Positions 21,336 to 58,628 of a DNA stretch of 64,000 bases are shown here, one piece after another. The notes below the pieces were generated by a model. That model was not told the DNA's origin and did not search any database. It was given only the letters and a program-made list of their open reading frames with translations. How positions within the stretch are numbered: the first letter of the stretch is position 1; each line of letters starts with the position of its first letter. The translations under genes and the position numbers were made by a program. Source of the stretch: Ectocarpus siliculosus (Eukaryota; Sar; Phaeophyceae; Ectocarpales; Ectocarpaceae); NCBI GenBank assembly GCA_000310025.1, contig FN649734.1, positions 2,685,245-2,749,244 of the forward strand. The letters are read 5' to 3'.

Positions 21336-24300
21336 ATGGTGGTCATGATTAGCACCCCTTCTCTCAGCCTCGGTCTCCTGGGGTCTGCCTTAATCATGTC
21401 TTCCGGCAGCGGCACCAGCACTAGCACCACAGGCTGCGAATGGGAGTTGTACTCGGCCCTCGTGGCGGATGGGTTTTGTCATCAGGCCTTCAACAACGCA
21501 GAATGTGGTATGTGGCATTTCGAGAAATCGCGTGATGTTCTAGATTGGTGATTGCGTGGCTAATAACTACGGTAGTTTTGGTCTCTCGGTCGCTCCCCAT
21601 TCCCCTAACAAAACGCTGGGCATTGACCACCAGAGAGGAGCGCACCAAAAGAGTGCGCTCTTTGCCCTCGCGAACACGTGTTTCCCACAGTATTTGGGAC
21701 TATTCACCGTTTGCTCTCCTTTTTCAGCCGTATTGGGCGATAGACCAACTCATCACGCCTGACTATCTCGACATGATATATCCCAAGTGTGCGACGATGT
21801 TGTTCAGGTGGGCGACAACATGACAACCCCCTATGGCGTGGTGGTAGCAGCTGCTGTTGCTGTTGATGTCATCGCCGTTGAATTTCTCGTCTTGACAGAT
21901 ATTTCTTACCATACTTCTTTCTGCATAGTCCACATGTGTTAATTGTAGCTCATCTTCCGTACAGCTGAAGTCGGCGAACGAATGTTGTGTGGGCACGGAA
22001 GGGTGAAGAATATGCCAACTACTTTTTCTAGAAGTGGGTAAACTACCTAGTCCCTGAAACGAGGGAAAACAATCAGAAGTAAATGTCACCTCGAAATGCG
22101 TCAAAACCCGTTCATGTAGGGACACGGGTCCCTGTATTGCATGGTTGATGTAAACCTTTTGCATCTGTTCGAATGTTTGACTGCACAATCAAGTCTTGAG
22201 ATTTTTTCAGGCCGTCTCACACTCCGAGCGTGGGGAGGGGGGTGGGCTTGGTCCGCGGAAAATCTAGCGAGAGACAACGAACCCCCTTTTTGTTGGGGTG
22301 GGATAGAACAAGTCCATGTTTTTTCGTGGTGGCCTTCGGTGGAGTATTTTTTCTGCCTCCTGAAACCTCCCTGGCCTGACCAGCGTGACCCTCTCCTTTA
22401 CCGTCCCTCGATTGCTTTCGCTTCCATGTCTAGCTCGGGCAAACCAGGGAAACGCTCAAGTCGGAATGTTGGGGTCTTCTAGGGTCTGTTGGTTTGGTGG
22501 CGGTGCTTCCTGTTTTGGGTGATAGCATGTGGCCTAGGCAATCTAAACGTGACCTTACGGTTAACGAAGACGAGGTCTTTGCGCTTGTAAGGAGATATCA
22601 ACAGAAACAGAAAAGAACAAGGGAAAAGCTCACATATCGCGCCGGTACGAGATCAGGACCTAGTCGTGAGATGGTGAAGGCTAGATTAGAAGACTATTTT
22701 TTTAACTCACCTGTGATAAACCGGCATGTTTGATGCGTCTCCTCGTCTACAACGTCCAGTCAATTCTCATCGCAAAAGGTCTCAGGAGTGCGGAAGATCG
22801 ACTAGATGCGGTCTGACATGATATATATCTTCCGGCTCCTCAGGATACGACGGCGGTGATTGCTGCGAGTGCACCTGTGTCAATGCCTCTTTTACCTGCG
22901 GCTACGGGGGCTTCGCCTGCATAGACCCGTCCGCCGCGTGTGTAGACGACGATGGCATTACTGAAGACATTGCAGAGAGCTGCAATGACGGTGGCGGCTA
23001 CGTTGCCAGTATTGGCGATGGCTTTTGCAGCGATGAAAACAACATTGAAGAATGCGGTGAGTCCAAGCACGTGTCTGGATTGGGAAAAATGCGGGGCTGA
23101 ACCGAGTTCATGATGACCCACAATGACGGTTGTGTGTCCATGTCTCGGATAAGCTTGCACAATTGAACAACATATGCCAGGGGGCGCCAGGGCGCAACAA
23201 TATATACCACTCTTTGCTCGTGCGACTACCCCAATAGGATGGAATATTGCAGCAGTACTCGTGCTTCCAATTGGCAGTCTGCAATATCCCACTTGGCACC
23301 AGGAACCAGTGGACCACAATGGAATAGGAGGAACTCATGGATGAATGAAGAAATAACTATGGCAGCTTTAACGTAGACTAACGAAATATTTATTGAACCT
23401 CTTCCAAATTTTGGATGTCAAACGAGTTCTCGTTCGTGCCAACTGATGCAGGAACTTTGGGAGTTGCGTTGCATCGCCTTTGACGAAACATTTTCTAACA
23501 GCGGGGGCGGGGTTGGACGTGCGTTATTGTGGCGTGCTTCAGCCAACAGGACGGTAGTTCATTATCAACAATAGAGTTTTTCTCGTTGTAGATGGTATGC
23601 TGTGTGGACGTAAAGCTTGCTTGGGCCATCTCTCTTGTTGGCCGCACTGCAAGGTAGGATCTCGCATCAATTAGTGTGAGCTAGAGAACAAAGGGAAAGC
23701 AACCCGCAATCCCGAGGCCCGGCGCGACATCAGAGGTGTTGTCCTGACTATCCTCCCAAGCATGCTAAGGGTCTTTGATTTCCTAGTTGTTCTGGACGCT
23801 GTCGTTTCGCAGACTACGACGGCGGCGACTGCTGCGAGTGCACCTGTGTCGACGCCTTTTATCCCTGCGGCTACGTGGCCTTTGCCTGCATTGACCCGTC
23901 CGCGGCGTGCGTAGACGACGATAACATCACTGCAGACATTGCAGAGAGCTGCCATGATGGCGGCGGCTACGTTGCCGGTCTTGGCAACGGCTACTGCAGC
24001 GAGGCAAACAACATCGAAGAATGCGGTGAGTCCAAGCACGGGTCTGGACCGGAGTTCGTTGCCGTATAGCTGAGTGAGACGAACCGGATCCTGATCTAAT
24101 AACAATACGGCTGTCTGTCCATATCACGGATAAGTTTGCACAACCGAAAAACAAAATACCATTGGGCGCCAGGGCGCAACTACTGTAAAAGGAAGGTTTG
24201 TTCGTCGAAGCAGATAGAATAAACTGGTGTTTATTTTGTAACAGTCGAATTAGAATTTGGCTTCATTTTCTACCGGAAACCCAGGGTCACGGTGTTTGGA

Positions 24301-27300
24301 ATTATTAGTCTATAGTTGGGGGTGTCATTCCGTGATCGAGTCCACGCAGGGGCTGTAGCAAAGTCGGGTAACGTGTGACAGCTACAGAGCGCGTGAAGCA
24401 ACGGAAGGACAGCAGCAGCCGCCTAACGCAGTAGCGGCGGCAGTCTCCATATAAAGGTGTGTACTCGTGTCCAACATCCATCGTGTCGGCCGTGTTTCTA
24501 TTCGCGTCCCGCTACTCTTGTGACCTCACCGCTGCGTGCATTTAGCACGAGGGGGGAGGGTGCAGTAAGATAAGCGGCGGCAAGCCACCGCAGTCTCGCT
24601 CGCCGCGCCGCTCAGATAGGTCCCTTCCCAAACATGGGATGCGGTTCATCCCAACCGAGACGTACTCTCGCTGAAGAAAAAAAAAATGCGGTTCGTCCCA
24701 ACCGAGACGTACTCTCTCTGAAGAAAAAATTCAACGGCAAAAAGAAAGAGCGGGGCCTGTTGTATGGTCGCACGCTGACTTGTCGCGGTTGATAGCAGCC
24801 ATTGTACTGCACGGGGTGGAGGAACCCTGCGGCATCGGACATAACCAATCGACCCGCGGCAGTAGGGCATGATGCTGTCACGAGTATGCACATGAGGCAG
24901 GTGCCTTGTTTTCTGTTTCCCCCGGCTTACTAGGGACTACTTGCCGGTACAATCTTGTCTGTGCCGCGCACAGAGGGGCATATAGCTGAAGGAATCGACG
25001 ATAATATGCCCACTCACGTAAGCAATCGTCTCCACGGATGGTATTGACAAGTCCCCACTGATGGTATCGACAAGTCCCATGGCATACAAAGCGGCCGCAT
25101 ACGTAATCGGAAAGTGCATTCAACAGCATTCACGGGAACGGATAAAAGCAAAAACACATGCATGCGAGAGAAAGACTCAAAGAAAAAGACTGAAAAACAA
25201 AGAAGACGAGAAAAAAAAAAAACGAGACAGCGAACTACGTGCTGTATGCATAAGGAAAAAGAAGATGAGAAAAAAATAGGGGGGGGAGATGAAAGTGACA
25301 CGCGAGGTTCGAACTCGCGAGGAACGTCAGGTAGCGGTCAATGTGAGTGCATCACGGTCTCGAGGGGCATCACGTCAAATTTATAGCCGCTGTGACACAA
25401 ACCTTCTATAAGAATACGTCACGTCCATCGACGATGAAGCGACCAAAAACGCCCGGACAGCAATTGATGCATGCCAAAAAAACTCGTCAACCTGCCGTAG
25501 GATTGTCTATGCGGAAGTGATCTCAATGAAAAAAAAAAAAAAAAAAAAACAAGGACACGCACCAGCACGGGACGCGCCAATAGTGGAAGCACTCGTCCGT
25601 GCTGTTGGCGAGTGGAAGTTAACCGATCTCAACGCAACGAAACACGAAGTCATACATGTATCAGCACGGGATGCGCCAATGAGTGGAAGCACCCGCGCTG
25701 TTGGCGAGTAGAGTTAACCGAATTCAACGCAGCGGTAGAAAAATACCACAAATCATGCATCAGTACGGGACGCGCCAATGAGTGGAAGCACCCGTGCTGC
25801 ATATGTGATATCAGCCTCAGCACGGGACGCGCCAATGAGTGGAAGCACTCGTGCTGTTGGTGAGTAGAGTTAACCGATCTCAAAAAGAAAGAACAAAACG
25901 CCGTACATGTATCAGCACGGGACGCGCCAATGAGTGGAAGCACCCGCGCTGTTGGCGAGTAGAGTTAACCGAATTCAACGCAGCGGTAGAAAAATACCAC
26001 AAAATCATGCATCAGTACGGGACGCGCCAATGAGTGGAAGCACCCGTGCTGCATATGTGATGTCAGCCTCAGCACGGGACGCGCCAATGAGTGGAAGCAC
26101 TCGTGCTGTTGGTGAGTAGAGTTAACCGATCTCAAAAAGAAAGAACAAAACGCCGTACATGTATCAGCACGGGACGCGCCAATGAGTGGAAGCACCCGCG
26201 CTGTTGGCGAGTAGAGTTAACCGAATTCAACGCAGCGGTAGGAAATACCACAAGTCATGCATCAGTACGGGACGCGCCAATGAGTGGAAGCACCCGTGCT
26301 GCATATGTGATGTCAGCCTCAGCACGGGACGCGCCAATGAGTGGAAGCACTCGTGCTGTTGGTGAGTAGAGTTAACCGATCTCAAAAAGAAAGAACAAAA
26401 CGCCGTACATGTATCAGCACGGGACGCGCCAATGAGTGGAAGCACCCGCGCTGTTGGCGAGTAGAGTTAACCGAATTCAACGCAGCGGTAGAAAAATACC
26501 ACAAAATCATGCATCAGTACGGGACGCGCCAATGAGTGGAAGCACCCGTGCCGCATATGTGATGTCAGCCTCAGCACGGGACGCGCCAATGAGTGGAAGC
26601 ACTCGTGCTGTTGGTGAGTAGAGTTAACCGATCTCAAAAAGAAAGAACAAAACGCCGTACATGTATCAGCACGGGACGCGCCAATGAGTGGAAGCACCCG
26701 CGCTGTTGGCGAGTAGAGTTAACCGAATTCAACGCAGCGGTAGGAAATACCACAAGTCATGCATCAGTACGGGACGCGCCAATGAGTGGAAGCACCCGTG
26801 CTGCATATGTGTTCTCAGCCTCAGCACGGGACGCGCCAACGAGTGGAAGCACTCGTGCTGTTGGCGAGTAGAGTTAACCGATCTCAAAAAGAAAGAACAA
26901 AACGCCGTACACGTATCAGCACGGGACGCGCCAATGAGTGGACGCACCCGCGCTGTTGGCGAGTAGAGTTAACCGAATTCAACGCATCGGTAAGAAATAC
27001 CACAAATCATGCATCAGTACGGGACGCGCCAATGAGTGGAAGCACCCGTGCTGCATATGTGTTGTCAGCCTCAGCACGGGACGCGCCAACGAGTGGAAGC
27101 ACTCGTGCTGTTGGCGAGTAGAGTTAACCGATCTCAAAAAGAAAGAACAAAACGCCGTACACGTATCAGTACGGGACGCGCCAATGAGTGGACGCACCCG
27201 TGCTGTTGGCGAGTAGAGTTAACCGAATTCAACGCATCGAAAACGAAGTCGTACACGTATCAGTACGGGACGCGCCAATGAGTGGAAGCACCCGTGCTGC

Positions 27301-30300
27301 ATATGTGTTGTCAGTTTCAGCAAGGGACGCGCCAATGAGTGCTGTTGGCGAGTAGAGTTAACCGATCTCAAAAAGAAAGAACAAAAACGCCGTACACGTA
27401 TCAGTACGGGACGCGCCAATGAGTGGACGCACCCGTGCTGTTGGCGAGTAGAATTAACTGATCTCCACGCATCGAAAACGAAGTCATACACGTATCAGTA
27501 CGGGACGCGCCAATGAGTGGAAGCACCCGTGCTCATATGTGTTGTCAGTTTCAGCAAGGGACGCGCCAATGAGTGGAAGCACCCGCGCTGCGTACAAGTA
27601 TCAGTACGGGTCGCGCCAATGAGTGGAAGCACCCGTGCTGCATATGTGTTGTCAGTTTCAGCGAGGGACGCGCCAATGAGTGGAAGCACCCGCGCTGTTG
27701 GCAAGTGGAGTTCACCGTATCCAACGCATCGGAAAAAAAAAAAACACGTATCAGCACGGGACGCGCCAATGAGTGGAAGCACCCGTGCCGATGGCGAACC
27801 GGGGTTCACCGAATCCAAGAAAATATATATGTAAAAAAAAAAAAAAAAGAGAAACCATCGCTAGTGGTCCAAAGAGAGAAATATTCGGGATTGGTCGACG
27901 TCCGGTGACCGTAGCGTCAGCAGCAATAATCACTCCATTCAATCCACAGGCGTCGAGAACGAACTAACGCGAGCTCGCGATATAACAACGCGTCGTTCTG
28001 GGCCCGACGAAAACCCACGTCAGATAGTTTCGCCCGAAGATAGGATTTGTAGACCATTCTAACTGCAGATCCAGGCGCGCGATCGACTACGCCCACGATG
28101 AAGAGGGAAATAAGTGTTCCCGCAACGCCGCCCTGACGCTCGCCCGCCGCCTGCCGCCGGTCCGCTGCTTATACGACTCCAACCGCGACCAGATGCCGAC
28201 ACGGGCCTCCACGCGGAGCGGCAGGGCAGCGGCTGGGCAAGCAGGGCGAGGTCGGGCGGCGACACCTTCGACACCACGCACGAGGAGGTCTACCGCGCGA
28301 TCGGTGGCGAGCTCGACGGCTCGCCCCTCGACGCGCAGCGGATCACGTACTCCCGCGAGGCGTCGAGCGGTATCCTCCTCGCGAGCGCCAGGGACAGGCA
28401 CCCGCGGCGACCCCCCCGCTGATGAGACTGAGCTCGCTTCTCTCCGCGGGCTGGTGGACGGCCTGAGGGAGGAGCTGCAGCGGAAGCGCGATGAGGCTGC
28501 CGGCGATCGCCAGCAGCTTCAAGCAACGATCGACGACCTGATCGCCACCCAAGCAGCAGGACCTGGCCTTCCGGGGGGAGGTGCAACTGGCGGGCACAAC
28601 CGCCCCACCATCGGCCTCTCGGGCCCCCGCTACACCCAGCGCCGAGGCGGCTAAGGCTACGGCAAAGGATAGAGCGCGGATGTGGGGGGACCTCCGCCGG
28701 GTAAAAAGCGTGGCTCATCCTGGGGCGGCCTCCGGCAGTTTCAAAACTGTCGCAGATGGAGTGGCAATCCTTGCTTCGCAAAGGCGTCCTGGTGACAGAG
28801 AAAGTGGCGGCATCGCTCGACACGCTCGTGGTTACTGCTTCGCCTTCAACTCGTCGTCCGGTTGCCATGATCGTAACTGCCCACACATCCACACCCAGAA
28901 CCCTTCCCACGCTAGGCGCGGAGCGTCCGAAACTCCGGCAACCGGCGCGCGCGGCGTTGGCCACGGCAACGGGGGAGGGCGCGGAGGAGAGGCGCGCGCC
29001 GCTGGCGAGGGCGGCGCGAGACCCAAGGCCGCTGGCTTCTTCACCCACGGGAAAGACAAATAGGGGTGCGGGCTCTCCCGCGTAGCGGGGGGGCCTACCT
29101 CGGATGCAGCGCACCTGCGGCTAAATCGAACGGCAGCACGCTGGTCTACACGAGGTTGGCTCCAGGGCTATCAGCAGGTTCAGGACCTGGGACAGGCAGG
29201 ACGGGACTTTGTTACCGACGTCTTGGCATGCAGCTCGTCGAGCACTCAGTTGCGTCTTCGTCTAGAAGGACTTACACGTCAGGCTTCAACTCTTGGTGCA
29301 CGTTTCACAGGCTGACGGAGAAGCCCAAGTTCCTAGGGCAACGTGCCGGGGACCTTCATGTGTGGGAGTTGATAGACTTCGTAGCCTGGTGTTTCGAGTC
29401 TGAGGGTAATCTAGCGAGTACAATATCCGGAAAACTCACGGCTGTACAACATTTTCATAGGCTGGAAGCTTCTGTCGAGCTAGACTTGTTGTCTCCGATG
29501 TTGAAATGTGCGCTAAGGGGGATTGCGAGGAACCACGTGGCTGTGGGGACGGTACGCCGTGTGCGCCTGCCTGTGTCTTGGCGTATGCTGCTGGACGGGG
29601 AAAGCGCAAGCCAGAACTGGGGGGAAGGGGGCAGAGTGATGTGGCTGTGTCTGTGCTTGTCTTATCTCTTTATCACACGGTCTGATGAGGTGTTCGCGAA
29701 TGATGCGGGCAGGGTGCATGAGGCACACTGTCTTACGAGGGCGGACGTAGCATTGTTTGCTGGCGAGACGCAATTAGTCTTTAGTCACTATCGTAGAGCA
29801 GACCGTGTCGAAATGAGGTTTAGAGGGCACAAGGCCGATCAAGAGCAGAAAGGAAACATACGGGTTCGTACGCGAGACGAAGTCACCGGACCGCAGTCAG
29901 GTGTGAGAGCACGCGGCGGCGCGGTGGCTCTTGTGGTGGAGCTGTTATCGTGTCATGCGACGTTCCCTGACTCCGCACCGTTGGCTTCGTACCGTAGTGG
30001 AAGAGCAGTGAGAGTAGTGAGGTATACTGCTGCCCTCCGTGCACTCAGAGAAGTGGTAGCGAAGTCGGGGCGTAACCCCCAGGAGTACGCGTTGCACTCG
30101 TTGCGAATTGGAGGCGCGACGGCTCTTGCATCGGGCGGAGACATCGCAGAACGAGTGATTCAGAGAGAAGGGAAGTGGAGGTCGGATGCATACAAGCCGT
30201 ACGCGTGAAACAATGTAGAGGATTCGCGGCGAGTGTCACAGAAACTTACAGACGGCAGTAGGATCGTATCGAGACAGCCGGGGGAGGGGACCGTCTGGGG

Positions 30301-33300
30301 GAACGGATAGTTGACTTATTCGGTAGTCGTCCAGAAACTGACCTCGATGTGGGTGTTGTAGAATGGTGTGTACCATTTGAGGACTTGGTCAGTTTTGGGA
30401 CTCCTGCGTTTGCAGTCGTAGTCCCCCGGCTAGTATTTGTGGGGGAGAGAGATGGATTTGTAAGAGTTGATGCCGGCCTTTGCAGCTAACGCGGCCGGAG
30501 AGACGATGAGCGTTTCGTGCGTCTCTCTCCCCAACACGTAGCCTAGAAACCGAAGAAATAATGAAGCAATTCGAAAGAAAACAAAATAAAAGGAAGGTTT
30601 GTTCGTCGAAGCAGATAGAATAAACTGGTGTTTATTTTGTAACAGTCGAATTAGAATTTGGCTTCATTTTCTACCGGAAACCCAGGGTCACGGTGTTTGG
30701 AATTATTAGTCTATAGTTGGGGGTGTCATTCCGTGATCGAGTCCACGCAGGGGCTGTAGCAAAGTCGGGTAACGTGTGACAGCTACAGAGCGCGTGAAGC
30801 AACGGAAGGACAGCAGCAGCCGCCTAACGCAGTAGCGGCGGCAGTTTAGAAAATCCCGCCCTCCCATCCCTTTTCTTTCGAAGGTGGGGGCATAAGTTCG
30901 GGAATATTCGGTATCTAGTCAGGTGTTGTAGAATGGTGTGTACCATTTGAGGACTTGGTCAGTTTTGGGACTCCTGCGTTTGCAGTCGTAGTCCCCCGGC
31001 TAGTATTTGTGGGGAGAGAGATGGATTTGTAAGAGTTGATGCCGGCCTTTGCAGCTAACGCGGCCGGAGAGACGATGAGCGTTTCGTGCGTCTCTCTCCC
31101 CAACACGTAGCCTAGAAACCGAAGAAATAATGAAGCAATTCGAAAGAAAACAAAATAAACGTACTATTCTGCTCCTGCGAATACCCCGGTAGGATGGAAG
31201 AAGGCAGTATTGGTACCGGGAACCAGTGGGCCTCAACGAAATAGGCTGGACCGAACACATGGAAGAATTAGGAAACCGAAATGGTGGAAATCACAACCTC
31301 TAATAGAGTAATCGTTAGTGCCAAGTGATGCAGGCACTTTGGAGTTGCGTTACATCGCCTTGGAGAACGGACATCAAACCGCGAGGGAGGTGGAGGTGCA
31401 TTGTTGTGTCATACTTGCAGCCAACACGACAATACTCCTTTTGCAGCCAATAAGACAATAGTCCTAAATCAAAGGTCCTCTTTCGTGTTGTAGATGGCAA
31501 TATTTGTGGATGAAAGCTCTCTCTGTCTCTCTCTCTGTCTCTCTCTCGTTGCCCGTACTGCAAGACAAGATCTCTCGTCATGTATTGTGACCTAGAGAAA
31601 GATGGAAGGCAACCCGCAATCCCGAGGCCCGGGCCGACATCAGAGATGCTGGCCTGACTATCCTCCCATACATGCTGAGAATCTCGCTCCCATTTTCTGG
31701 CACTTTGTTGTCTTTTCGCAGATTACGATGCTGGCGACTGCTGCCAGTGCACCTGTGGGATTGAGTCCGATGACCTTCCCGACTTTTCCTGCGTGGACTT
31801 TGCTTGCGTTGACCCGAACGCACCGTGTGTGGATGACGACGTCACGGAGGGGATGTTTGAGGACTGCTTCAACTTCGGCGATGGATTCTGCAACGACTAC
31901 AACAACAATGAACAATGCGGTGCGCCCGAACAATTCGTCGTGTTGAATCGATTGAGCGTGGGGATGAGGGTAGTTCTTAGCGCTGCCAGCCCGTGGCATC
32001 GAGTGGTGTACCTCATGGGACCTTTAACCCTGTAGATGTCGGGCAGTACCCTATCATCCCGAAAGACAGGCCCAACCTTGTGACGCCTTTTCATTTGTCA
32101 GGTTACTGCATCGGCAAGACAATCAGCACAATCACCACGCTCATGAGTCGTATCGCTCAACCTTGACCTCGATCGTTTTCTCAACGGTTGCGTTCTATTA
32201 CAGCTCGCAAAGCGAAATTCTCTCTCGCCCATTCAACTCCTTCAATGTGCGTGGTAAGAGGCGTGATAACCAAGATCGATCCCCCTTGGTTTGCTTGTTT
32301 GTTCCTTCCCTATTCCTCAGGCTATGACGGTGGCGACTGCTGCGAGTGCACCTGCGTGGTTGATTGGTCCGCTGAGTTCGGTTGCACCGAGTTCGCATGT
32401 ATTGATCCAACGGCTCCGTGCGTTGATGATGACGACGTTACGGCTGATGCGCTGGAAAACTGCATGATGGAATATCTTGGCGACGGATACTGCGATACTT
32501 ACAACAACATCGAGATATGCGGTGCGTCATACTGCTATTTCTAAGTGGTCAAAGTGGCACTTACGTCGACTCTTTCCTCCGCCTTGTGTGGATTGGAGTA
32601 CCCCGCCGCTGGTCATGGATGATACTTGGCAGTAGTCCAATTGGCGACCTACTGTCCATACAATCTCTCACACTACTGACAGTTTTGCTAAACCACCCAT
32701 GGGCGGCCCATGACGTCCCCATGCGTGGGCATTTCAACCTAGAACTTCGCCACCGGCATATCCACCTAGAACTTAGCCACCAGCGCCAACCTATAATAGC
32801 ACGTATCGTGTTGGCTTGGGGTTAGGGATAGGGTTAGCGTTAGGGGTATTCAATGCCCGTTCCAAAGCAGATATTCTATTGTTGAGGAGTACACTGATTC
32901 CGGTTGAAAGACTCTCATTGGCCGCCCATGGGCTTCGCATGGGTTGCCATGGGCCGCCCATGGGTCAACCATGGGCTTGCCGATGGGCAACAAATTGCCC
33001 ATGGGCTGCCCATGGGTGTCCCATGGGTGTTTTAGCAAAACTGTAGAAAGTGTGGGAGACCCTGTCCATGCGACCTTTCCTCGGGCAGGCCATCACCTCA
33101 AACGTCTATCCCTCGTCAACAACTCGATAACACTGCATCGTGATTCGTGTTTCTGTGCAGAAAGCAGTGCGTTGGCCTTGGCCCGTGCATTGCCGTCCAC
33201 TACATCATCTAATTGAATCGTAGCTCAAATTTGTTTGGAATGGCTCAAGGGCTTTGTGGAACCCCTCGAATTAGTTGCTTGGGCTCTTCTCTCTTTCTTC

Positions 33301-43441: not shown

Positions 43442-45471
43442 CTACAGCTTCTCCGGAAAATTCATCAACTTGCGCCGGTGGTACTGCAGACTGGCCCTGC
43501 TAAGGGCCTTGGTTAGGAGGTCCGCGTGTTGCTCCGTTGTCGGAACGAACTTGACCGAAATATCCCTCGACCTAAACAATCCGCGGATAAAATGAAACCT
43601 CACGTCGATGTGTTTCGTGCGACCTGAGCTGAGGGGGTTCTGCACCAACGCTATGGCCCCCTGGTTGTCCTCAAGGACCTGGATGCTGCTACCACTGGTC
43701 TCTGGGGCAACAAGCGAAAGCACAGCACGCACAAACAACGCTTCCTTGACGCCCTCCCCGGGAGCAATGTACTCGGCTTCCGTCGAAGACAAAGACACGA
43801 TGCTCTGTGTCTTGCTACCATGGCTGACTACGGTACCTCCAACCGTCGCTGCCAACCCTGACACCGAACGCCTATCCTCCGTGTCGGCGTAGCTAGCGTC
43901 TACGTACACGGCCAGCCCTAACCCCGATCCCCGTTGGTAGGCGATGCCGAGGTCCCTCGTCTGCTTTAGGTAGCCGAGCATCTTCTGTATCGCGTCCCAG
44001 TGCCTCTTCGCCGGGGCGTGGGCGTGGCGCGCTACCGCACGCACGGCGAACGATACGTCTGGACGCGAGAACGTCGACACCCACATCATGCTGCCGATGG
44101 CCTCCCTCACCGGCCACTCCCCTCCCTTCTCATCATCTCGCTTCGGTCCTAGGTCGGCACCGGGGATAGCGGGGATGTGGGAGGTCGATTGCACATCAAA
44201 GCGTTTCACCATGCTGTCAATGTATGCGGTTTGGGAGATTCTAAGAGTCCCAGTCTCTACATCTCTCTCGATGGCACACCCGTCAAACCATTCACACTCT
44301 CCAAGTTTTTTTGGTGGGAAATTTCTTGTTGAGAGAAGCAAGCAACTCCTCACAATCCTCGTCAGACCCAGCCACCAGAATGTCATCCACGTAGATCACG
44401 ATAATCATCACCACGACTTCGTCTACTATCTTGCGGAAAACGCACGGGTCCGCCTTGCACTGTTCGAACCCGTTCTCGACTAGCGTATCAGCAGCGTGGT
44501 ACCCCCACTGCCTACCGCTCTGCTTCAGACCGTAAACCGCACGCTCAGCCTTAACAATTTTATGCGATTTGTCCCCGCACCCAGCGGGGAGCCTCAGAAA
44601 AACCTCCTCGTCTAGCGTGGCGTGTGTGTACGCCTGCTTCACATCCCAGTGATTGAGGTTCATGCCCTTCTCGTTTGCTACCGCAAGCATCAGCTTAATG
44701 GATGCGGATGAGGGGCAAGGGGAAGACGAATGGAAATAATCGACGTTCGGGATTTGCGAAAACCCCCTAGCAACCAGACGCGCTTTGAACTTGTCTATCT
44801 TCCCTTCCTTGTTGGTCTTCCAACTAAAACACCCCTTTGAGCTCACAGGCCTGCGCCCCTCTGGCGTGCCGTCTACGAATGAAAACGTCCCCGTGCCCAA
44901 GTGTCCTTCAAACTCTTCCCTCATGGCCTGTTCCCACCCCTCTCTGTACACAGACATGGCAACGCCGGCTACGGTCATGGGGGGGGGTTCTACATCACTC
45001 GGACGCTTGCCTATGGGGGATTCACTTAGCTCGTGGGACGCCAGAGCCGTCTCGAAGGCGTCTGGCGAGTTGATCATGAGGTCCACCGCACCCAGCAGGA
45101 AGTCCTCCGCCTCTTGGTGCGCAGCGTGGGCCTCCTCGGAGCGCTCGAACAGCAACTCTCGCACCACCCTCGCCTCTAGCCCCTCCGCCACGTGGAGTAC
45201 CGCCGAGAGCATCCAGCGGGTGAACTCCTCCGTGCTGTTGACGGGCAGGCTCGCCACCGAGGCGAGCAGGGCTTCGGCACTTGTCGGCGACGGGGGCGAC
45301 TCGTACCTCGGGTTTCTGCGAGGGTTTTCTCTGGTGCGGCGGCTGGTGAGTTCCGCCGGCTTGTCGAAGCGAGCTAAGGGTTACCGTCACGTCGCCATAC
45401 CCTACAATAGGGAAGGTTTCTCCTGCGGCGACGCGCACGTCGATCACACTCTTCGTAACGAACGAGCCCAT
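43442..45471 (-). mobile_element. Outer Copia pol part (reverse transcriptase and RNase H)
   Basis: Minus-strand sequence shows Copia RT motifs (FKARLVARGFSQ, WDVKQAYTHATL, AVYGLKQSGRQW, IYVDDILVAGSDEDC) and the Copia RNase H region (VDASYADTEDRRSVSG, SLSSTEAEYIA, HIDVRFHFIRGL). It is fossil coding sequence of the outer element; I saw no integrase core. Confidence 0.85.
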
Positions 45472-45913: not shown

Positions 45914-45997
45914 CGCTAGCGTATGACACGTCGTCTACGAGATTCGAGTCGAGCTTAGTTTGGAGTATCGCTTTGCGGCGATCAGCAGCAGCCACCG

Positions 45998-47770
45998 ATG
46001 AGCGACACCGAGCAAGATCGAGTGAGCGCCCGACTAGCAGAGGAGGAAGCCCGGATCAACTACTTGGTCGAACAGAGGGTAGAAGCAAGACTGGCCGAGA
46101 TGTCGAGGCAAGAAGCAGAGGAGCGGAGGACAGATGACGTCCGGACCGGAAGAGAGCACGAGGATCGCCACCAGCAACACGCGGGGCGGCCATCGGCCAA
46201 CCCGACGACCGACGAAATCGCCCGCACACTCGCCGACGCCCTCACCGGTCGACTTCACGTCTCATCAGGGGACATGGGTAGAGTACCCATTAACGCAGGG
46301 ACGGTTCGAATGACTGAGACTAAGCGCCTAGCGCCTTGGGATGGTGTTTTCAAGCAAGGGGAGGATGAGCAGGCTAAGTTTTTGATATTTCGATCGAACA
46401 TGGTAGCTATGTTTGCCCAGGAAGGAGTGCGTGACGTAGTACTGACTGAAGAAAAAATTCCAGTTGGGAAAGAAGGCGTGAGCATGGAGGAGATGCGTAG
46501 GGTGCATTCGAGTGGACGGGTAGAAAAGGCAATAACGGCGTGGAACCTGCTGATCACGACAGTGACATACATGCCAATCCTAACCCAGATCATCGCCGAT
46601 GGGAGTCCTAGTGGAGGTTGGAAGATATTCCTCAATTATTACGAGCCGCGTGCCAGGGCCGAAAAAGAAAGGCTGTCATCTCAATATCACGCTCTTGAGA
46701 TGAAAGTAGGGGAGACCCCGCAAGAGTACTTCGGGAGATTTGCTGTTTTGCGCAGTAGGCTCGCCTCGCACGGTGTTGTTTTCTCCGACGATGATGCCAA
46801 TGCCCACATGGTATACCACCTTTCCGACGAGTACTCGGTAGAGAAGAAGATTCTGACCATGTCACCGATTCCCCCCTCGCGCGAGACAATTGAAAAGGCT
46901 GTGCGAGATGCTCATGCGGACTCGGTTCGCCGTCGGGAGGGGGAACCGAAGAATGGCGCGGGGCACGCGTTCGTCGCTTCCGGTGGCATCCGGGGCGATG
47001 GACGTGTCCAAAATGGGTCGAGTGGAAACGGCGGGGGTCAGGACGGAAACGGAGGCGCCCGGAGTCGGAGCAGGAGCAGGGTGAGAGGAAACAAGAAAGG
47101 CGGAGGTGAGAGAGGAGCCGACAACGACCACTGCTACCTACATCCGCGCTTGTTCCACACCAACGCCCAGTGCTACACCCAGCGCGACCGTCGGAAGGAG
47201 CAGGAGCAGCAGCAGCCCCAACAGCAGCAGTCTCAGCAACAGCAACCCCAACAGCAGCAGTCTCAGCAACAGCAGCCTCAGCAACAGCAGCCTCAGCAAC
47301 AGCAACTTCACGGACCGCCGCCGCAGCAGCCGAGCTACAGTGGGGGGGGCTGGGGCGGTGGGCCTCAGCACGGACCTCACAGCGGCTACGGAGGACAGCA
47401 TCAGCACAGGTATGCAGCGCCCCCTCGTCCTCCACAACCGCCTTGGCGGCCTCCGTACGGGCACGCTAATGTGATGCACGCGTATAGTACTATGCCCTAC
47501 GGGGGGCCCGCGAATGGTACCGAGTATGGCGGGTGGGAGCAGCAGCAGCAGCAGCAGCAGCCTTCGCCAGACTACTACCAGCAGCAGCCGTACTACCCGC
47601 CTCCGACACCGTACTACCAGCAGCAGCAGCCACCATCGCAGCCTCCGCCACCGCCGTCGTTTCAGCCGCAGCAGCAGCAGCACTCCACCCATGCCCCGCC
47701 CCAGTCGCCCTCTCCCGGAGCAGCAACCTATCCGCCTGGGCATCTCCACTCCCTGATGGCACACTTTGTG
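45998..47770 (+). mobile_element. Inner Copia gag region
   Basis: It begins with MSDTEQDRVSARLAEEEARI, a charged coiled-coil-like start, followed by a Copia gag-like helical domain (ITAWNLLITTVTYM, YFGRFAVLRSRLASHGVVF, MVYHLSDEY), a basic Gly/Arg/Ser stretch with a Cys/His cluster (CYLHPRLFHTNAQC), and a long Gln/Pro-rich segment around 47195-47700. Confidence 0.8.
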
Positions 47771-47879
47771 TCCGCTGACGAGATGAGTTCGCTTTCGGTT
47801 TCGAGTGATGTAAGCAGTGTTGCATGTGGTGATGATCTTGGCTTTGCTTTGTCTGCACAGAGTTGCGAATACAGTCCTG

Positions 47880-49760
47880 GTAGGGAGGTATTTTGGTCTG
47901 ATAGCGGTGCAAGCAACCATTTTGTGAGTAACAGCTCCAAGATGTACAACATCTCGCCTGTCCCCCCCGGCAAAGAATTCATCAAAGTAGGCAATGGTGC
48001 TTATTTGCGCGTGGAGTGCGTAGGTAGTGTCAATCTGGCATTTCACATGGCAGGAGGTCGATCGGGAGAAGCGGATTTCTGTGTCCAATTGACAGACGTG
48101 TACGTAGTACCAGGGATTTCGTTCAACTTGTTCTCTCTGCACCACACGCAGAAAAAGCACAGGATAATGTTGGATGAGAGGGGTGTGCACCTTTTCGGTG
48201 GTCGGCTTAGTTTCGCATACTCGGATATCGGATGCTCTCTATCGGCCACCCGCTTGCCTCCCTCGTACCGCGACGGTGATGTAATCCCCTCTACCGTTGT
48301 CCCTCCCCCCGTTGTCCGCCAAGCGTCTCCGCCTGGTGTTGGTACTGGCCTTTTCGCGCAAAACCCCCCTCCCCCTTCTCAGATTTCAGGATCGGGTGCA
48401 GGATGCGGTCCGAGTTCCAGCTTCCCGTCCATCGGTCCCGCCGGTGTTGTACCTTCGGCTCCGAGCTTCCCGTCCATCGGTCCCGCCGGTGTTGTACCTT
48501 CGGCTTCGAGCTTCCCGCCCATCGGCGCTGCCGGTGTCGTACCTTCGAGTTCGAGCATCCCGTCCACCACTTCCGGTGTAGTACCTCCGAGTGATGCTTC
48601 CCCGCCTATCGATGTTGATTTAGTGTCTCCGTCGATCCGAGATTTTCAGCCTGCCCTAGCCGCAGCCATCGCCTCATCCGACGTCCTGTCCCCCTCAGTC
48701 GTGAACCCGAATGTGTCGCGAGAGATAGAGATCATGCCCCTTGAGTCCCAGGATAATTTGCCTTTGATGGACATGAGTATGTTCTTGGATGTAGGCTTGA
48801 TGAACGGACAGGACTCGGTCCCGCCGGGTGACTTTTATCCCGACCCATTAGGCGTATGTGAGTCCGTGAAGCCCCCCGTTGCGTTCGCTGTGATGCAAGA
48901 TGAGTTGGACGTGCTCAGAGACTTTGTTGTCGAGTGCCGTGTGCAGCAAGATGTAGGTCCCCCCTCCCTTTCCCATGCTTTGGCGATTATCGCCCCCGGT
49001 GGTCCAGCGTTCACTGTAGGAAAACCCACGTCCACCATCGACATTAATTTGTTCCACGCTTCCACCGGCCACGTGAATGAATTCTTGATGAGGGAAACCG
49101 CAAAGCAGCAGGGTGTTCAATTGGTGGGGGAACTGCAGCCATGCGTCGGCTGCATCGAGGCGAAGGGCAGGAGGGCCCCGGTGCCGCGGCGTGGAGTCAC
49201 CCGCGCGGCGGTACCGTTCGGCAAGGTGCACATCGACATCACCGGCCCGTACTCTGAGGCGTTCGATGGTTCTCGTTACCTGATCATGTTCGTGGACAGC
49301 GCGTCGCGGTGGCAACGGGCGTACGGCATGCGTGCCAAGAGCGACACCCTGACGTACACGCGGCGCTTCCTCGCCGACCTGAACGGCAACGGTACTCCGG
49401 GGTGTTTCCGCATGGACAACGGTGGTGAGTTCACCAGTGCTGCCTTCGTCGCGTTCTGCGACGCCGCTGGCATCCGGCGCGAGTACACCGCGCCCGACAC
49501 CCCGAAGCAGAATGCGGTCGTCGAGAGCGCAATCTGGCGCGCTATGAAGGGGGGCCACGCCGCCCGTCGCCACGTCCTCTCCATGGGCCACGTCGACCTC
49601 GCCTCTATCCCCGGTATGGACGCCAACGGACACCGGCTATGGCTTGCATCGGCGATCTGGGCCTCCGGCTGCTTCAACCGTTCCGCGACGTCGGCCAACC
49701 CGGCCTGGATGTCGCCGTTCGAGGCCTTCTTCGGACGTAAACCGCCGCTCAACGTCGTCC
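47880..49760 (+). mobile_element. Inner Copia protease and integrase region
   Basis: The protease motif FWSDSGASNHF lies near 47890. A Pro/Ser-rich stretch contains near-identical ~54-bp tandem repeats around 48412-48560 (SSFPSIGPAGVVPSAPSFPS type). The pre-integrase zinc-binding H-H-C-C pattern (LFHASTGHVNEF, CVGCIEAKGR) lies near 49050-49170, then the integrase core (VHIDITGPYSEAF, RMDNGGEFTSAAF, TPKQNAVVESAI). Confidence 0.85.
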
Positions 49761-50829
49761 CTTTTTTCTAGGAGGGGATGATGCGCGTGAAGCGCGCCAG
49801 CAAGGCGGACGTCCAATCCGTGCGTTGCTTCTACATGCACGGAGCGCGCAACCACTCCGCCGCCACTGCCGTCGTTCTCCGCGCCGACACCGGAAGGATC
49901 TGCCTGTCCAACAACGTCGTGTGGATCAACCGCCGCACCGCCGTGCCGGCGCCGGTACCGGCCAGCGGGGGGGGCTCTTCGGTCACCGCGGCGCCCTCGC
50001 CGGCCGCCGCCGTTCCTGCAGCCGCTGCCGCACCGCCACCGCCATGGGCATCGCGGACGTACACCTACACCCCGCCCACAGCGACCACCGCTTCGCCGCC
50101 GCCCACTTCTCCGTCGATCTTCACAGGGTCCGGAGCCGCGTCGCCGATCTCCACGGCGTCTTCGAGTGCACCGCCGTCCACCGCAGCCACGCCGCCCCGT
50201 CCACCGCCGACACCCCCGCCCGCAAGCGCCGCCGCTCCCGCTCCCCATCACCCGCCGCTTTCACAGCGAGCCGTCAGAGAATTGGGCGAGAAGGAAACCA
50301 GAGTGCATGGCCGTACGCGCGGCGACCGAGTGCGCTTCATGGTATGAGCAACAGCAACCGCCGTCGCCGTCAGGTGGCGGCACCGCTCTCCAACACCGCC
50401 TTGGGCTGCTGTCGATGATGGGCAAGGATGCGCTCGTCTCGTCGCTCGCCACCCGGGAGGCCGTCGATCAAGGACGTCGAGACCTGCCACCGTCCGCCAG
50501 CATCGCCCCTCCCGCTCCCCCACCGCCGCAAGATACGAGTTTAGCAGGCCATGGGAGCGGGGGGGCCGCAGGAGCTGGAGGGCCGGGGGGCCTGCACATG
50601 TTCGCAGCAATGTTCGCCACCCGCGAGGACGTGGAAGCCACTCTTCGTGCCAAGCGCCCTCCTGACAAGATGCCGGACCTCCCTCACTGCCTCGCCAGCG
50701 ACCTCCGCGTGCCGAAAACGTTCAAGGAGGCCATGCGGTCTCAACATTCAGAGTTGTGGGATGATGCAGTCGGTCGGGAGTTTTTCGGTCTGTTGGATGC
50801 AGGTACTTTTAGTCCGGTGTAGCAACCAG

Positions 50830-52244
50830 TAGAAAACTTCATCAACGCCAAGTGGGTATTCAACTGTAAGGCAGACGAGTACGGATGGCCGACGAAATTC
50901 AAGGCAAGACTTGTAGCGCGGGGGGACATGCAGAGGGCTTCGATTGATTTTGGAGAATTGTTTGCACCCACCGTATCCGTGTCTAGTGTGCGTTTGTTGG
51001 CAGCTTTGGCATGTGAGCAGAACCTTGACTTGTGTCATTTCGATATTCAGCAGGCGTTTGTGCAGTCTGAGCTTGAAGAGGATGTTTTCATGCGTCTCCC
51101 GCAAGGTTGTGGTAGGTTATCTGGACTGATCGTGAAGCTATGCAAGAGTCTGTACGGTTTGAAGCAGGCGTCACGACAATGGCATGCGCACCTGACGAGG
51201 TGTTTGTTACTTTTAGGATTTGTACAATGTTTGGCGGATGCATGTGTTTTTCGATTTATGGAGGATGGATGTGTGATCATGATCATCGTGGTCCACGTGG
51301 ATGACATTTTTGCCGTAGGGCAGAAGGAGAGATGTGACAAGTTTGGCAGAGACCTCAACGAGATGGTCCCCGTGAAGAACCTTGGGGAGTTGAGGTGGTA
51401 CTCCGCGTGCTTTTACCAGAGAGATCTAGAGAGAGGCCTTTTGAGGATCTCGCAGCAAAGGTTTGCAGAAGAGTTGGCTGCAGAGTACGGCGTAGAGTGG
51501 GGGAAGAGTGTGCCCTTGCCTGTGAGCATGAAGCTCACCGACTTTGACGAGGACGAAGCGTGTGCTGATGTCCCTTTCCGCGAGTTGGTAGGATCCCTGA
51601 TGTGGTTGGCCACTCAAACCAGGCCGGACATCGCGAATGCAGTACGAGCAGTAGCGCGGTATTGCGCGTCTCCCAAGATGGTGCACTGGAAGGCAGCACT
51701 TGGTATTTTAGGGTACGTGCGTAGGACGAGTTGGATGGGGATTACATTTGAGAGGGGTGTGGTGACTGGCATGAGCATGCAGGTGTTTGTGGATGCTGAC
51801 TATGCGAGCAAGGCAGCAGACCGTAGGTCGGTTTCAGGAGGACTAGTGATGTGTGGGGGTGGGTGTGTGACTTGGTTTTCGAGGACGCAGAAGTGCGTTA
51901 CGCTTTCCACAACGGAAGCAGAGTATGTGGCAATTGCCGACGTCTTGAAGGAGGTGCTTTTCTTGAGGCAAGTTTGGCGTTTTATGTTGCCAGATGCAGG
52001 TATGCCGTGCATTCAAATCTTCGAGGATAATCAGGGAGCGATTCAGATTGCGCACAACCCGATCACGAACTCAAACTCGAAGCACATTGATGTACGGCAT
52101 CACTTTATCAGGGAACTGGTAGAGAGGAAGGAGATTTCGATTACTCATGTGGCGTCGGAGTTTCAGCATGCAGATTTCTTGACGAAGGCTATCAGCAAGG
52201 AATCTTTTGCGTTGCACAGAGACTTTGTGATGAATTTGCAGTGA
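50830..52244 (+). mobile_element. Inner Copia reverse transcriptase and RNase H region
   Basis: RT motifs: WVFNCKADEYGWPTKFKARL, CHFDIQQAFVQSELEEDVFM, SLYGLKQASRQWHAHL and VVHVDDIFAVGQ. RNase H motifs: VDADYASKAADRRSVSGG, TLSTTEAEYVAIADV and KHIDVRHHFIRELVERKEIS. This is standard Copia order; the region just upstream (49780-50820) is a Pro/Ala-rich linker. Confidence 0.88.
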
Positions 52245-55463: not shown

Positions 55464-58400
55464 TTGTTCCAATCGTGACGACGGTCGTTGCTTTCAACCT
55501 GGTGGCCTACGTTACGATCGTGAGGACTATCCTTTGGTCCAATCCGGCGCACATGGTTCCAATCGCGAGGAGGGTCCGTGGTTTCAGTTGGGCGCGCTTG
55601 GTTCCAATCGCGAGGAGGGTCATTGGTTTCAACACGGGGTCTTTGGTTCCAATCATGAAGACGGTCTTTGGTTCCAATGTGGCACCCTTGTTTCCAATCG
55701 TAAGGACGGTCCTAGGTTGACATCCGGCGCCCTTGGTTCCAATCGTCAGAAGGGTCTTTGCTACCAACCTAGGGGCGTCGGTGCCAATCGTGACGACGGT
55801 CCTTGGGTTCCATCTGGGGCCGTCGGGCCCGATCGTGAGGACGGTCCTTGGTTTCAATCCGACGCCCGTGGTTCCAATCGTGATGACGGTCTTTGGATTC
55901 AATTGTGCGCCCTTGGTTCCAGTCATGAGGACGGTCCTTGGTTTTGATTGGTCGCCCTTAGTTCCAATCGCGAAGACGATCCTTGGTGTCGAACTGGCGC
56001 TCTTGGTTCCAATCGTGAAGCCTGTCCTTGGTTTCAATCTAAAGGCATCGGTTCCAATCGTGAGAACGGTCCTTGGGTTCAACCTGGCGCCCTTGGTTCC
56101 TATCGTAAGGACGGTCGTTCTGTTTATTCTGAGGACGTCGGTTCCAATCGTGAGGACGATCCTTGGTTTCAATCCGGCGCCCACGGTGTTATTTGTGAGG
56201 AGGGGCCTTGGGTTCAATAGAGCGCCCTTGGTCCCAATCGTGAGGACGGTAATTAGTTTCAACCTGGATGCCTTGGTTACAATCGTGAAGACGGTCCTTG
56301 GTTTCAATCTGAGGGCGTCGGTTGCAATCGTAGGGGCGGTCCTTTAGTTCAAGCTTGGGGGGTCGGTTCCAATCTTGAGGACAGTCCTTGGTTTCAATCT
56401 GGCGCCCTTGGTTCCTATCGTGAACACGGTCCTTGTTTTCAATCCGAGGGGGTCGGCTCCAATCGTGAAGACCATCCTTGGTTTCAATCCGGGGCCCATG
56501 GGTTCAGTCGTGAGGACCGTCCTTGGTTTCAATTGGGCGCCCTTGGTCTCAATCGTGAGGACGGTGATTAGTTTCAACCTCGGTGCCTTGGTTCCAATCG
56601 TGAAGATGGTCCTTGGTTTCAATTGGGCGCCCGTGGTCCCAATCGTGAGGACGGTTCTTCGTATCAATCTGAGGGCTTTGGCTCCAATCGTGAACACGGT
56701 CCTCGGTTCCAATCTGGAGACCTTGTGCCCAATCGTCAAGACAGTCCTTGGTTTCAACCTGGGGGCCTTGGGTCCAATCGTGAGGACGGTCCTTGGTTCC
56801 AATCTGGAGGCCTTGTTTCCAATCGTGAAGACGGTCCTTGGTTTCAACCTGGGGCCTTGGCTCCAATCGTCAAGACGGCCCTTTGTTTCAACCTGGGGGC
56901 CTTGGTTCCACTCGTAAAAACGGTCCTTTGTTCGAATCTCGAGGTCTTGGCTCCGAACGTGGAGACGGTCCTTGGTTCCAATCTGGAGGCCTTGCTTGAT
57001 ATCGTCAACAGGACCCTTTGTCTCAACCTGGGGGCCAAGGGTCCAATCGTAAAAATGGTCCTTGGTTCCAATCTGGAGACCTTGGGTCCAATCGTGAAAA
57101 CGGTCCTTGGTTCCAATGTGGAGGCCCTGTGCCCAATCGTCAAGACGGTCCTTTGTTCCAACCTGGGGACCTGGGTTCCAATCGTGAAGACGGTCCTTGG
57201 TTTCAACCTGGATGCCTTGGGTCCAATCGTGAAGAAGGTCCTTAATTTCATCCTGGGGGCCTTGGTTCCAATCGTGCGGACGGTCCTTGGTTTAAACCTG
57301 GAGGCCTTGTGCCCAATCGTCAAGACAGTCCTTGGTTCAAATCAGGAGCCCTTGGTTCCAATCGTGAACACGGTCCTTGGTTCCAATCTCGAGGCCTTGT
57401 TTCCAATCGTGAGGACGGTGGTTGGGTTTTAACCTGGGGGCCTTGGGTCCAAACGTGAGGACGGTCCTTGGTTTCAATCTGGAGGCCTTGTTTCCAATCG
57501 TCAAGACGGTCCTTGGTTTCAACCTGGGGGCCTTGGTTCCAATCGTGACGACGTTCCTTGGTTTCAACCTGGGGACCTTCGGTCGAATCGTGAGGACGGT
57601 CCTTGGTTCCAATCTGGAGGCCTTGGGTCCACTCGTGAAATCGGTCCTTGGTTCCAATCTGGAGACCTTGGCTACCGTGGTGAACACGGTCCTTGGTTCC
57701 AATCTGGAGCCCTTGGGTCCAACCCTGAGGACGGTGCTTGGTTTCAACCTGGGGGCCGTGGTTCCAATCGTCAACAAGGTCCTTTGTTTCAACCTGGGGG
57801 CTTTGGCTCCAATCGTGAACACGGTCCTCGGTTCCAATCTGGAGGCCCTGTTCCCAATCATCAAGAAGATCCTTGGTTTCAACCTGGGGGCCTTGGGTCC
57901 AATCGTGAGGACGGTCCTTGGTTCCAACCTAGATGCCTTGGGTCCAATCGTGAAGACCGTCCTTGAATTCAGCCTGGTGGCATTGGTTCCAATCGTGAGG
58001 ACGGTGGTTGGGTTTTAACCTGGGGGCCTTGGGATCCAATCGTGAGGACGGTCCTTTGTTACAACCTGGGGGCCTTGGGTCCAATCGTGAAGACGGTCCG
58101 TGGTTTCATCCTTGGGGCCTTGGGTCCAAACGTGGGGACGGGCCTTGGTTTCAATCCGGAGGCCAACCGATCGTGAGGACGGTCCTCGGTTCCAACCTGG
58201 GGGCCTTGGTTACAATCGTGAAGATCGTCTTTGAATTCAACCTGGGGGCCTTGGATCCAATCGTGAGGACGGTCTGTGGTTTGAATCCGAAGGCCTTGCT
58301 TCCAATCGTGAGGACGGTGCTTGGTTTCAACCTGGGGGCCTTGGGTCCAATCGTGAAGACGGTCCTTGGTTCCAATTGGAGGCCTTGTTTCCAATCGTCA

Positions 58401-58628
58401 TGACGGTCCTTGGTTCCAATCTGGAGGTCTTGTTTCCAATCGGCAACAAGGTCCTGTGGTTCAACGCGGAAGCCTTGACTCCAATCGTCAAAACGGTCCT
58501 TGGTTCCAATCTGGAGGCCTTTGGTCCCACCGTGTACACGGTCCTTTGTTTCAATCTGGGGGCCTTGGGTCCATTCGTGAGGACGGTCCTTGGTTCCAAC
58601 CTGGGGGCCTTGGGTCCAATCGTGAGGT
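55464..58628 (+). repeat. 45-bp satellite array, about 70 copies
   Basis: Tandem units of 45 bp follow the pattern GGTCCTTGGTTTCAACCTGG, GGGCCTTGGTTCCAATCGTG, AGGAC, with point differences between copies and few length changes. Two sub-families are visible, a left part richer in CGCCCTTGGTTCC and a right part richer in GGAGGCCTTG. Because 45 is divisible by three, several frames on both strands are open for 200 or more codons and translate to 15-residue repeats (VLGFNLGALVPIV type; SNREDGPWFQPGGLG type; PRTVLTIGTKAPRL type on minus). With no splice, start or domain context, I call it noncoding. Confidence 0.9.

Follow-up and report, generated by a model that had tools for sequence, protein, structure and literature searches.

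A probable Ngaro-type element without reverse transcriptase and its probable reverse-transcriptase-bearing partner in the genome of Ectocarpus siliculosus

How can a retrotransposon spread when it has lost its reverse transcriptase (RT)? The question is raised by an element at positions 24186-31159 of a 64,000-nucleotide stretch of the Ectocarpus siliculosus genome (assembly GCA_000310025.1, contig FN649734.1, positions 2,685,245 to 2,749,244 of the forward strand), here called the window. The element encodes a tyrosine recombinase (YR) between split direct repeats. Its interior has no RT-RNase H (RT-RH) and it is therefore non-autonomous. Judging from sequence, it is very probably an RT-deleted derivative of a Ngaro-type YR retrotransposon, mobilised via an RT-bearing partner. 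It probably relies on the RT of a longer relative, nearly identical in sequence, that the same genome contains.

From 5' to 3' on the plus strand, the window copy consists of A1 - interior - B1A2 - 76-bp spacer - B2. A repeat search of the window showed that the A1 terminal repeat (24186-24444) and the A2 internal repeat (30587-30845) are identical over 259/259 bp. The B1 internal repeat (30352-30590) and the B2 terminal repeat (30922-31159) share exact blocks of 93 and 149 bp, and their sole difference is one base in the length of a G-run. B1 and A2 overlap by 4 bp (TAAA), and the spacer occupies 30846-30921. The borders of the copy lie inside a shared AAA (24187-24189 and 31157-31159). The element proper starts from AGGAAGG (24190), with the crossover AAA just before it, and the 3' border is ...CAAAATAAA. 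The original prediction, made from the letters alone, had described a split-direct-repeat YR element with repeats of 259 and about 239 bp in the order A1 - interior - B1 - A2 - B2, and this description stands.

The interior contains a non-coding tandem array of about 250-bp units (25563-27590, plus strand), whose length varies among the genome copies. A gag remnant (28193-29063, plus strand) presents an Arg/Ser-rich N-terminus in the frame 28028-28654 (ATG at 28193) and a CCCH-type zinc finger in the frame 28542-29063. The YR frame is open over 430 codons from stop to stop. Counted from the first ATG, it covers 29228-30208 of the plus strand and encodes 326 amino acids. We read in it the residues RSDE, HKADQ, HSLR, GKW and DAYKPY, which we take to be the R-K-HxxR-W-Y motif of tyrosine recombinases. 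Its TGA stands one codon past the last Tyr; the YR of another copy, L043, runs on for 34 amino acids.

The RT missing from the window copy is present elsewhere in the genome (189 Mb, 492 contigs). RT-RH was searched for with a hand-typed probe and then recognised by motif reading. With this probe, RT frames were found beside YR matches on C74, C27, C79, C147, C156 and C187. The partner on C74 has the same layout as the window copy (A1...B1-A2-B2, with A1 and A2 identical over 259/259 bp) and measures 8.44 kb from A1 to B2. Its gag (564 codons), RT-RH (768) and YR (392) are all open, and the YR frame begins before the RT-RH frame has ended. The RT motifs DLR, D...AFRQV and YVDD, together with RNase H residues, were read by eye. 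The identity with the window copy is 97.8% in YR, 98.1% in A and 100% in the spacer. The RT of the copies on C27 and C14 is 99.7% identical to that of C74. PHROGs and NCBIfam returned nothing for the partner RT-RH, and Pfam no methyltransferase in the three open reading frames of C74. Three further 3' ends were read: B1-A2-spacer-B2 is present on C79, where A2 contains a small duplication; C147 stops early in B2, and C27 stops inside the spacer. The original prediction had recognised the type of element. It had missed the loss of RT-RH, which makes the copy non-autonomous, and the RT-bearing partner in the same genome.

Compared with C74, the window copy misses about 511 bp (around 28827) and about 84 bp (around 28952) of gag, and about 2.05 kb of RT-RH. 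The last deletion left a join at GCAGGT (29174-29179, plus strand). The lost piece is bounded by GCAGGT at both ends; it also fits the removal of a GT...AG intron. The join CAGCAGGTTCAGGACC is present in 43/43 family loci, in 41 as an exact word and in L004 and L006 with one base off beside it. These loci correspond to 38 distinct elements: L001/L009, L002/L030, L003/L016, L008/L031 and L023/L043 were fetched twice, and L010 is the window copy. They include a second family (family 2, on C21, C43 and C10), which has the same RT join and a gag deletion different from that of family 1, the family of the window copy. By pairwise distances, C74 lies closer to family 1 than it does to family 2 in 5/5 segments (A, B1, YR, gag and the post-YR stretch). 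The 5' interior is outside this comparison, as the family 2 part is too short. A partner nearer to family 2 was sought at two places. C187 is nearest to C74 and family 1, and C206 is only distantly related. Since the two families share the join though the partner is nearer to family 1, RT was lost either twice at one spot, or once with a later exchange of the outer parts.

A second RT-bearing YR family (L089-L092, on C16, C228, C107 and C40) was also observed. It has about 50% amino acid identity in RT and YR and, like C74, overlapping frames for the two. The RT sequence is kept upstream of YR in 8/8 copies read, all of them copies without a match to the RT probe. The RT loss of the first family was not seen to recur there. 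A genome search with RVT_1, in which 150 of 1041 candidates were scored, failed to reveal the partner. Four of its matches were fetched. By reading, L045, L046 and L047 are polyproteins of long terminal repeat (LTR) retrotransposons, and L048 is a fragment of the L045 kind. L045 and L048 are of the Gypsy type and contain a region that we interpret as a NADAR domain; such elements have been reported from Ectocarpus (PMC12477816).

How widely has the family spread? The candidates of the genome searches are candidate places, not verified copies. With A as query, 40/40 scored places, including the two in the window, were 100% identical (339 candidates). With the YR DNA, 40/40 scored places were 99-100% identical (222 candidates). 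A clean B1 - A2 - spacer - B2 is present in 35 of the first 39 loci. There are four exceptions: L015 has no B2, in L033 A2 is followed by another 5' interior, the repeats of L034 are disturbed, and L037 stops at B1. The 3' border ...CAAAATAAA is followed by other DNA in 41/43 loci, with 36 distinct flanks, and is lacking in L015 and L033. The 5' flanks before AGGAAGG form an A-rich triplet, with A at -2 in 37/42 and at -3 in 31/42 (the A frequency in the window, 0.21, is the base of comparison) and G at -1 in 0/42. Thirty-seven short 5' stretches were fetched; L050 and L056, with no A start, were left out. The copy on C57 lies within an A repeat that belongs to another copy, and this gives the empty site AGAATAAA/CTGG. 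No target duplication beyond the crossover bases was found, including at the nested C57 site. Because the same borders recur in many genome copies, chance is excluded as their origin.

In the 23 copies matched with both the 5'-interior and the YR searches, the distance between these parts is 3259-4618 bp. In L043, which was read whole, the tandem array and the gag remnant occupy this stretch. The YR core is open in 29/30 loci (L024 is frame-broken), and 12 of the 29 intact cores equal the majority sequence over 924 bp. Five full copies allowed comparing A1 with A2: the window copy, L043 and C74 are identical within the aligned stretch, and L040 and L042 reach 99.6%. L042 carries one private change (GGAACG) in both repeats. 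The recent movement proposed for the window copy is backed by its identical A repeats, the identical A places and the majority YR cores. The family is young and many-copy, and its insertions lie at A-rich sites without target duplication.

Other arrangements occur. L037 and L041 are A-interior-B copies, whereas L086 (B-A-spacer-B-A-spacer-B) and L088 are tandem forms. No clean solo AB copy was found in the two places read: on C8, B-A is present but spacer and B2 are missing; on C15, A-spacer-B ends in a clean 3' border and has a B end and N at its 5' side. What looked like a long fused frame on C241 consists of N. About 60 bp separate A1 from the 5' interior in L043, L040, L042 and C74; the window copy does not have them (window 24444-24460). 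A TATA-like ATATAAAG lies 3' of that point, outside A1, which is odd if the transcript is expected to start in A1.

Which copies supply the proteins? Among the 29 intact family 1 cores, the YR variants are 15 non-synonymous to 4 synonymous, and the random ratio is 3.1:1. The ratio of non-synonymous to synonymous substitution rates (dN/dS) of YR is 0.16-0.20 between family 1 and the partner, 0.37-0.39 between family 1 and family 2, and 0.22-0.24 between the partner and family 2. Split on three branches (C7, C74 and C21; our own estimate), it is about 0.05 for the partner, 0.6 for family 1 and 0.35 for family 2. Since YR varies among the RT-less copies at a neutral ratio, mobilisation in trans is the best reading. 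The data fit RT-less copies that would be passengers using proteins supplied in trans, and their own YR could still act.

Several observations weigh against this reading. The RT-bearing copies are few, with an RT match beside 6 of 98 scored YR places, and the 5' interior of C74 is about 8% diverged. The partner RT-RH was found with a hand-typed probe, and its Pfam RVT_1 match is weak (E 0.02, below the cut-off). The dN/dS contrast between branches depends on few changes (Fisher P 0.056, with rounded counts). The open YR core is equally expected of a self-sufficient YR element. L087, outside the 43-locus set, does not have the usual 3' border, and its B2 ends in ...CAAAAT.

The movement of such a passenger can be proposed as follows. 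The element RNA would be reverse-transcribed by the partner's RT-RH, and the internal B1A2 copy would be the template for the B2-A1 junction of a circular DNA. The YR, mostly the partner's, would recombine the TAAA of this junction with an A-rich host site. Variant circles might give rise to the A-interior-B copies (L037, L041) and to the tandem B-A-spacer-B copies (L086, L088). The forms of L037, L041 and L086 could result from YR acting between two B-A junctions of one circle. In the split-repeat model, the terminal B2-A1 junction is regenerated from the internal B1A2 copy. The GGAACG common to A1 and A2 in L042 and the A1/A2 match in the five full copies fit this model. In its printed version, the repeats pair with one another in the course of reverse transcription (PMC6681497). 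As for the RT, it could have been lost via template switching between the two GCAGGT words, or via splicing.

Splicing is one alternative for the RT loss. The autonomous element would splice GT...AG across RT-RH for its YR message, and spliced RNA, once retrotransposed, would have founded the RT-less families. The partner reads CAG/GTGTGG...ACTGGCAG/GTTC where the RT-less copies read CAG/GTTC, and the family 1 join puts the start of the RT frame in frame with YR. This join is common to two RT-less families that diverge by about 5% in YR, even though their gag deletions differ, and C74 is nearer to family 1 in each segment compared. However, the join falls within a 6-bp direct repeat, so plain template switching suffices too, and we estimate that, given such an amount of slide, a GT-AG fit would arise by chance in about 3% of cases. 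There is no clear pyrimidine tract before the acceptor, and both gag deletions of family 1 are not GT-AG. In family 2 the reading continues past the join in the frame of the RT tail, and it takes a later indel to reach YR. The second RT-bearing family keeps its RT sequence in all copies read, and a single ancestral loss with later exchange with the partner also accounts for the shared join. We consider this origin of the RT-less families possible, yet unlikely. Slightly more doubtful is that the YR of the autonomous element is made from a spliced message skipping RT-RH, with this RNA retrotransposed, perhaps twice, to found the RT-less, YR-bearing families.

For the RT-deleted derivative preferred here, the next question is the group to which it belongs. 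The original prediction of an open recombinase frame with an R...HxxR...W...Y pattern is confirmed by the reading of the frame and by a profile comparison. With a PF00589-positive YR of the same genome, the HSLR...W...Y box aligns (E 0.00024, probability 43.5%). The other searches placed it in no family: Pfam had no match for the window YR at E 1, and the sequence searches of PHROGs, NCBIfam and PDB gave no usable family match. The best PDB rows were Outer Surface Protein A (E 0.2 or worse), taken as chance. No relatives were found in phage and IMG/VR searches. A single-sequence structure model of YR had a mean pLDDT (predicted local distance difference test) of 31, too low to be of use. Within the genome, PF00589 gave a single reported match (47 candidates), a YR of another kind at L044:1450-2043 (C76:55488-55793).

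The layout and domain content fit Ngaro, an assignment made on these features. The window copy has the split direct repeats A1-[ORFs]-B1A2-B2 and the tyrosine recombinase, and no methyltransferase domain. The RT and RNase H of Ngaro are present in partner C74 and absent from the window copy, which is therefore filed as a non-autonomous derivative and not as a complete Ngaro. Ngaro elements are not known to make target-site duplications beyond the crossover bases, and none is seen in this family either. No inverted repeat pair of at least 30 bp was found in 23500-32000, unlike DIRS1-like elements with their inverted terminal repeats and internal complementary region. The original prediction had named a Ngaro/DIRS layout, distinct from LTR and terminal inverted repeat transposons. 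TOC1 of Chlamydomonas is another non-autonomous split-repeat element, with a tandem-array interior and no known YR frame. The Ngaro layout also agrees with PMC9210276.

An assignment to the PAT-like group seems rather improbable. Split direct repeats also occur in PAT elements and a zinc finger in the gag of Pat1 ones, and one derived Pat1-like lineage is reported to have no methyltransferase (PMC4157794). Both PAT and Ngaro groups are reported in Ectocarpus (PMC12477816). However, this element has no methyltransferase: the YR frame of the partner overlaps the RT-RH end, and Pfam shows none in its three frames.

Ectocarpus Ngaro comprise 15 families and 3893 copies, 689 of them intact, which make up 2.45% of the genome (PMC12477816). 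The present family is probably among these. In the parts of that paper covered, neither an RT-less, YR-keeping family nor the deletion join is described. Nor did the other literature covered here describe any Ngaro family that lacks RT and keeps YR, and the part of PMC8498967 covered has nothing on this point. Split-repeat elements in shortened form have been described from Cafeteria and trypanosomatids (PMC8547959, PMC6681497). The Cafeteria Ngaro present the same A1-[ORFs]-B1A2B2 structure with gag, RT-RH and YR, isolated AB repeats and internally deleted versions (PMC8547959). In these, ORF1 is lost and RT loss is not mentioned in the part covered, whereas the window family loses RT-RH and keeps YR. 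VIPER has split direct repeats and a shortened non-autonomous form, SIRE, beside it. However, SIRE joins the first 185 bp of VIPER, about 30 bp of its own and the 220-bp VIPER 3' end (PMC6681497), while the window element keeps the whole YR frame. The family is probably an RT-less family of a known type, Ngaro. What is new is the window copy without RT-RH, the common deletion join and the full-length partner C74.

Cryptons also have YR without RT, yet neither terminal inverted nor long direct repeats (PMC3212892), in contrast to the 259- and 239-bp split direct repeats of the window element. A self-sufficient, Crypton-like DNA element, which would copy itself or excise as a circle by its own YR with no RT needed, would account for the open YR cores, the join in 43/43 loci and the circle-like forms (L037, L041, L086, L088), but it is very improbable given the neutral YR variation, an internal B1A2 copy useful in the reverse-transcription model only, the L042 change present in both A1 and A2 as if A1 were rewritten from A2 each cycle, and the near-identical RT-bearing partner.

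The surroundings of the element support its location in a host intron, as predicted. The putative intron (24026-31721, plus strand) has its GT at 24026-24027 and its AG at 31720-31721. These ends, read from the sequence, flank the element between two duplicated cysteine-rich exons of the same strand. Pfam found no family above the cut-off for these exons. The duplicated exons of the host gene lie at 23813-24025, 31722-31919 and from 34096 on, the last with a membrane-protein-like stretch after it. By reading, a Copia-like element with long open frames occupies 45959-52244, and a further RT-like stretch lies at 43442-45380 on the minus strand. A 3.2-kb array of 45-bp units (55466-58627) has long open frames on both strands.

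YR elements have been called rare and poorly understood (PMC4157794). Here, a single genome combines a young non-autonomous family with its RT-bearing partner of nearly the same sequence, dozens of insertions whose borders are exact, a nested insertion revealing the empty target, and by-products that resemble circles. Trans-mobilisation, target choice and the possible spliced expression of YR thereby become directly testable. If the spliced message exists and has been retrotransposed, YR-only elements would have a natural way of arising from YR retrotransposons, and the expression of the overlapping YR frame would be explained.

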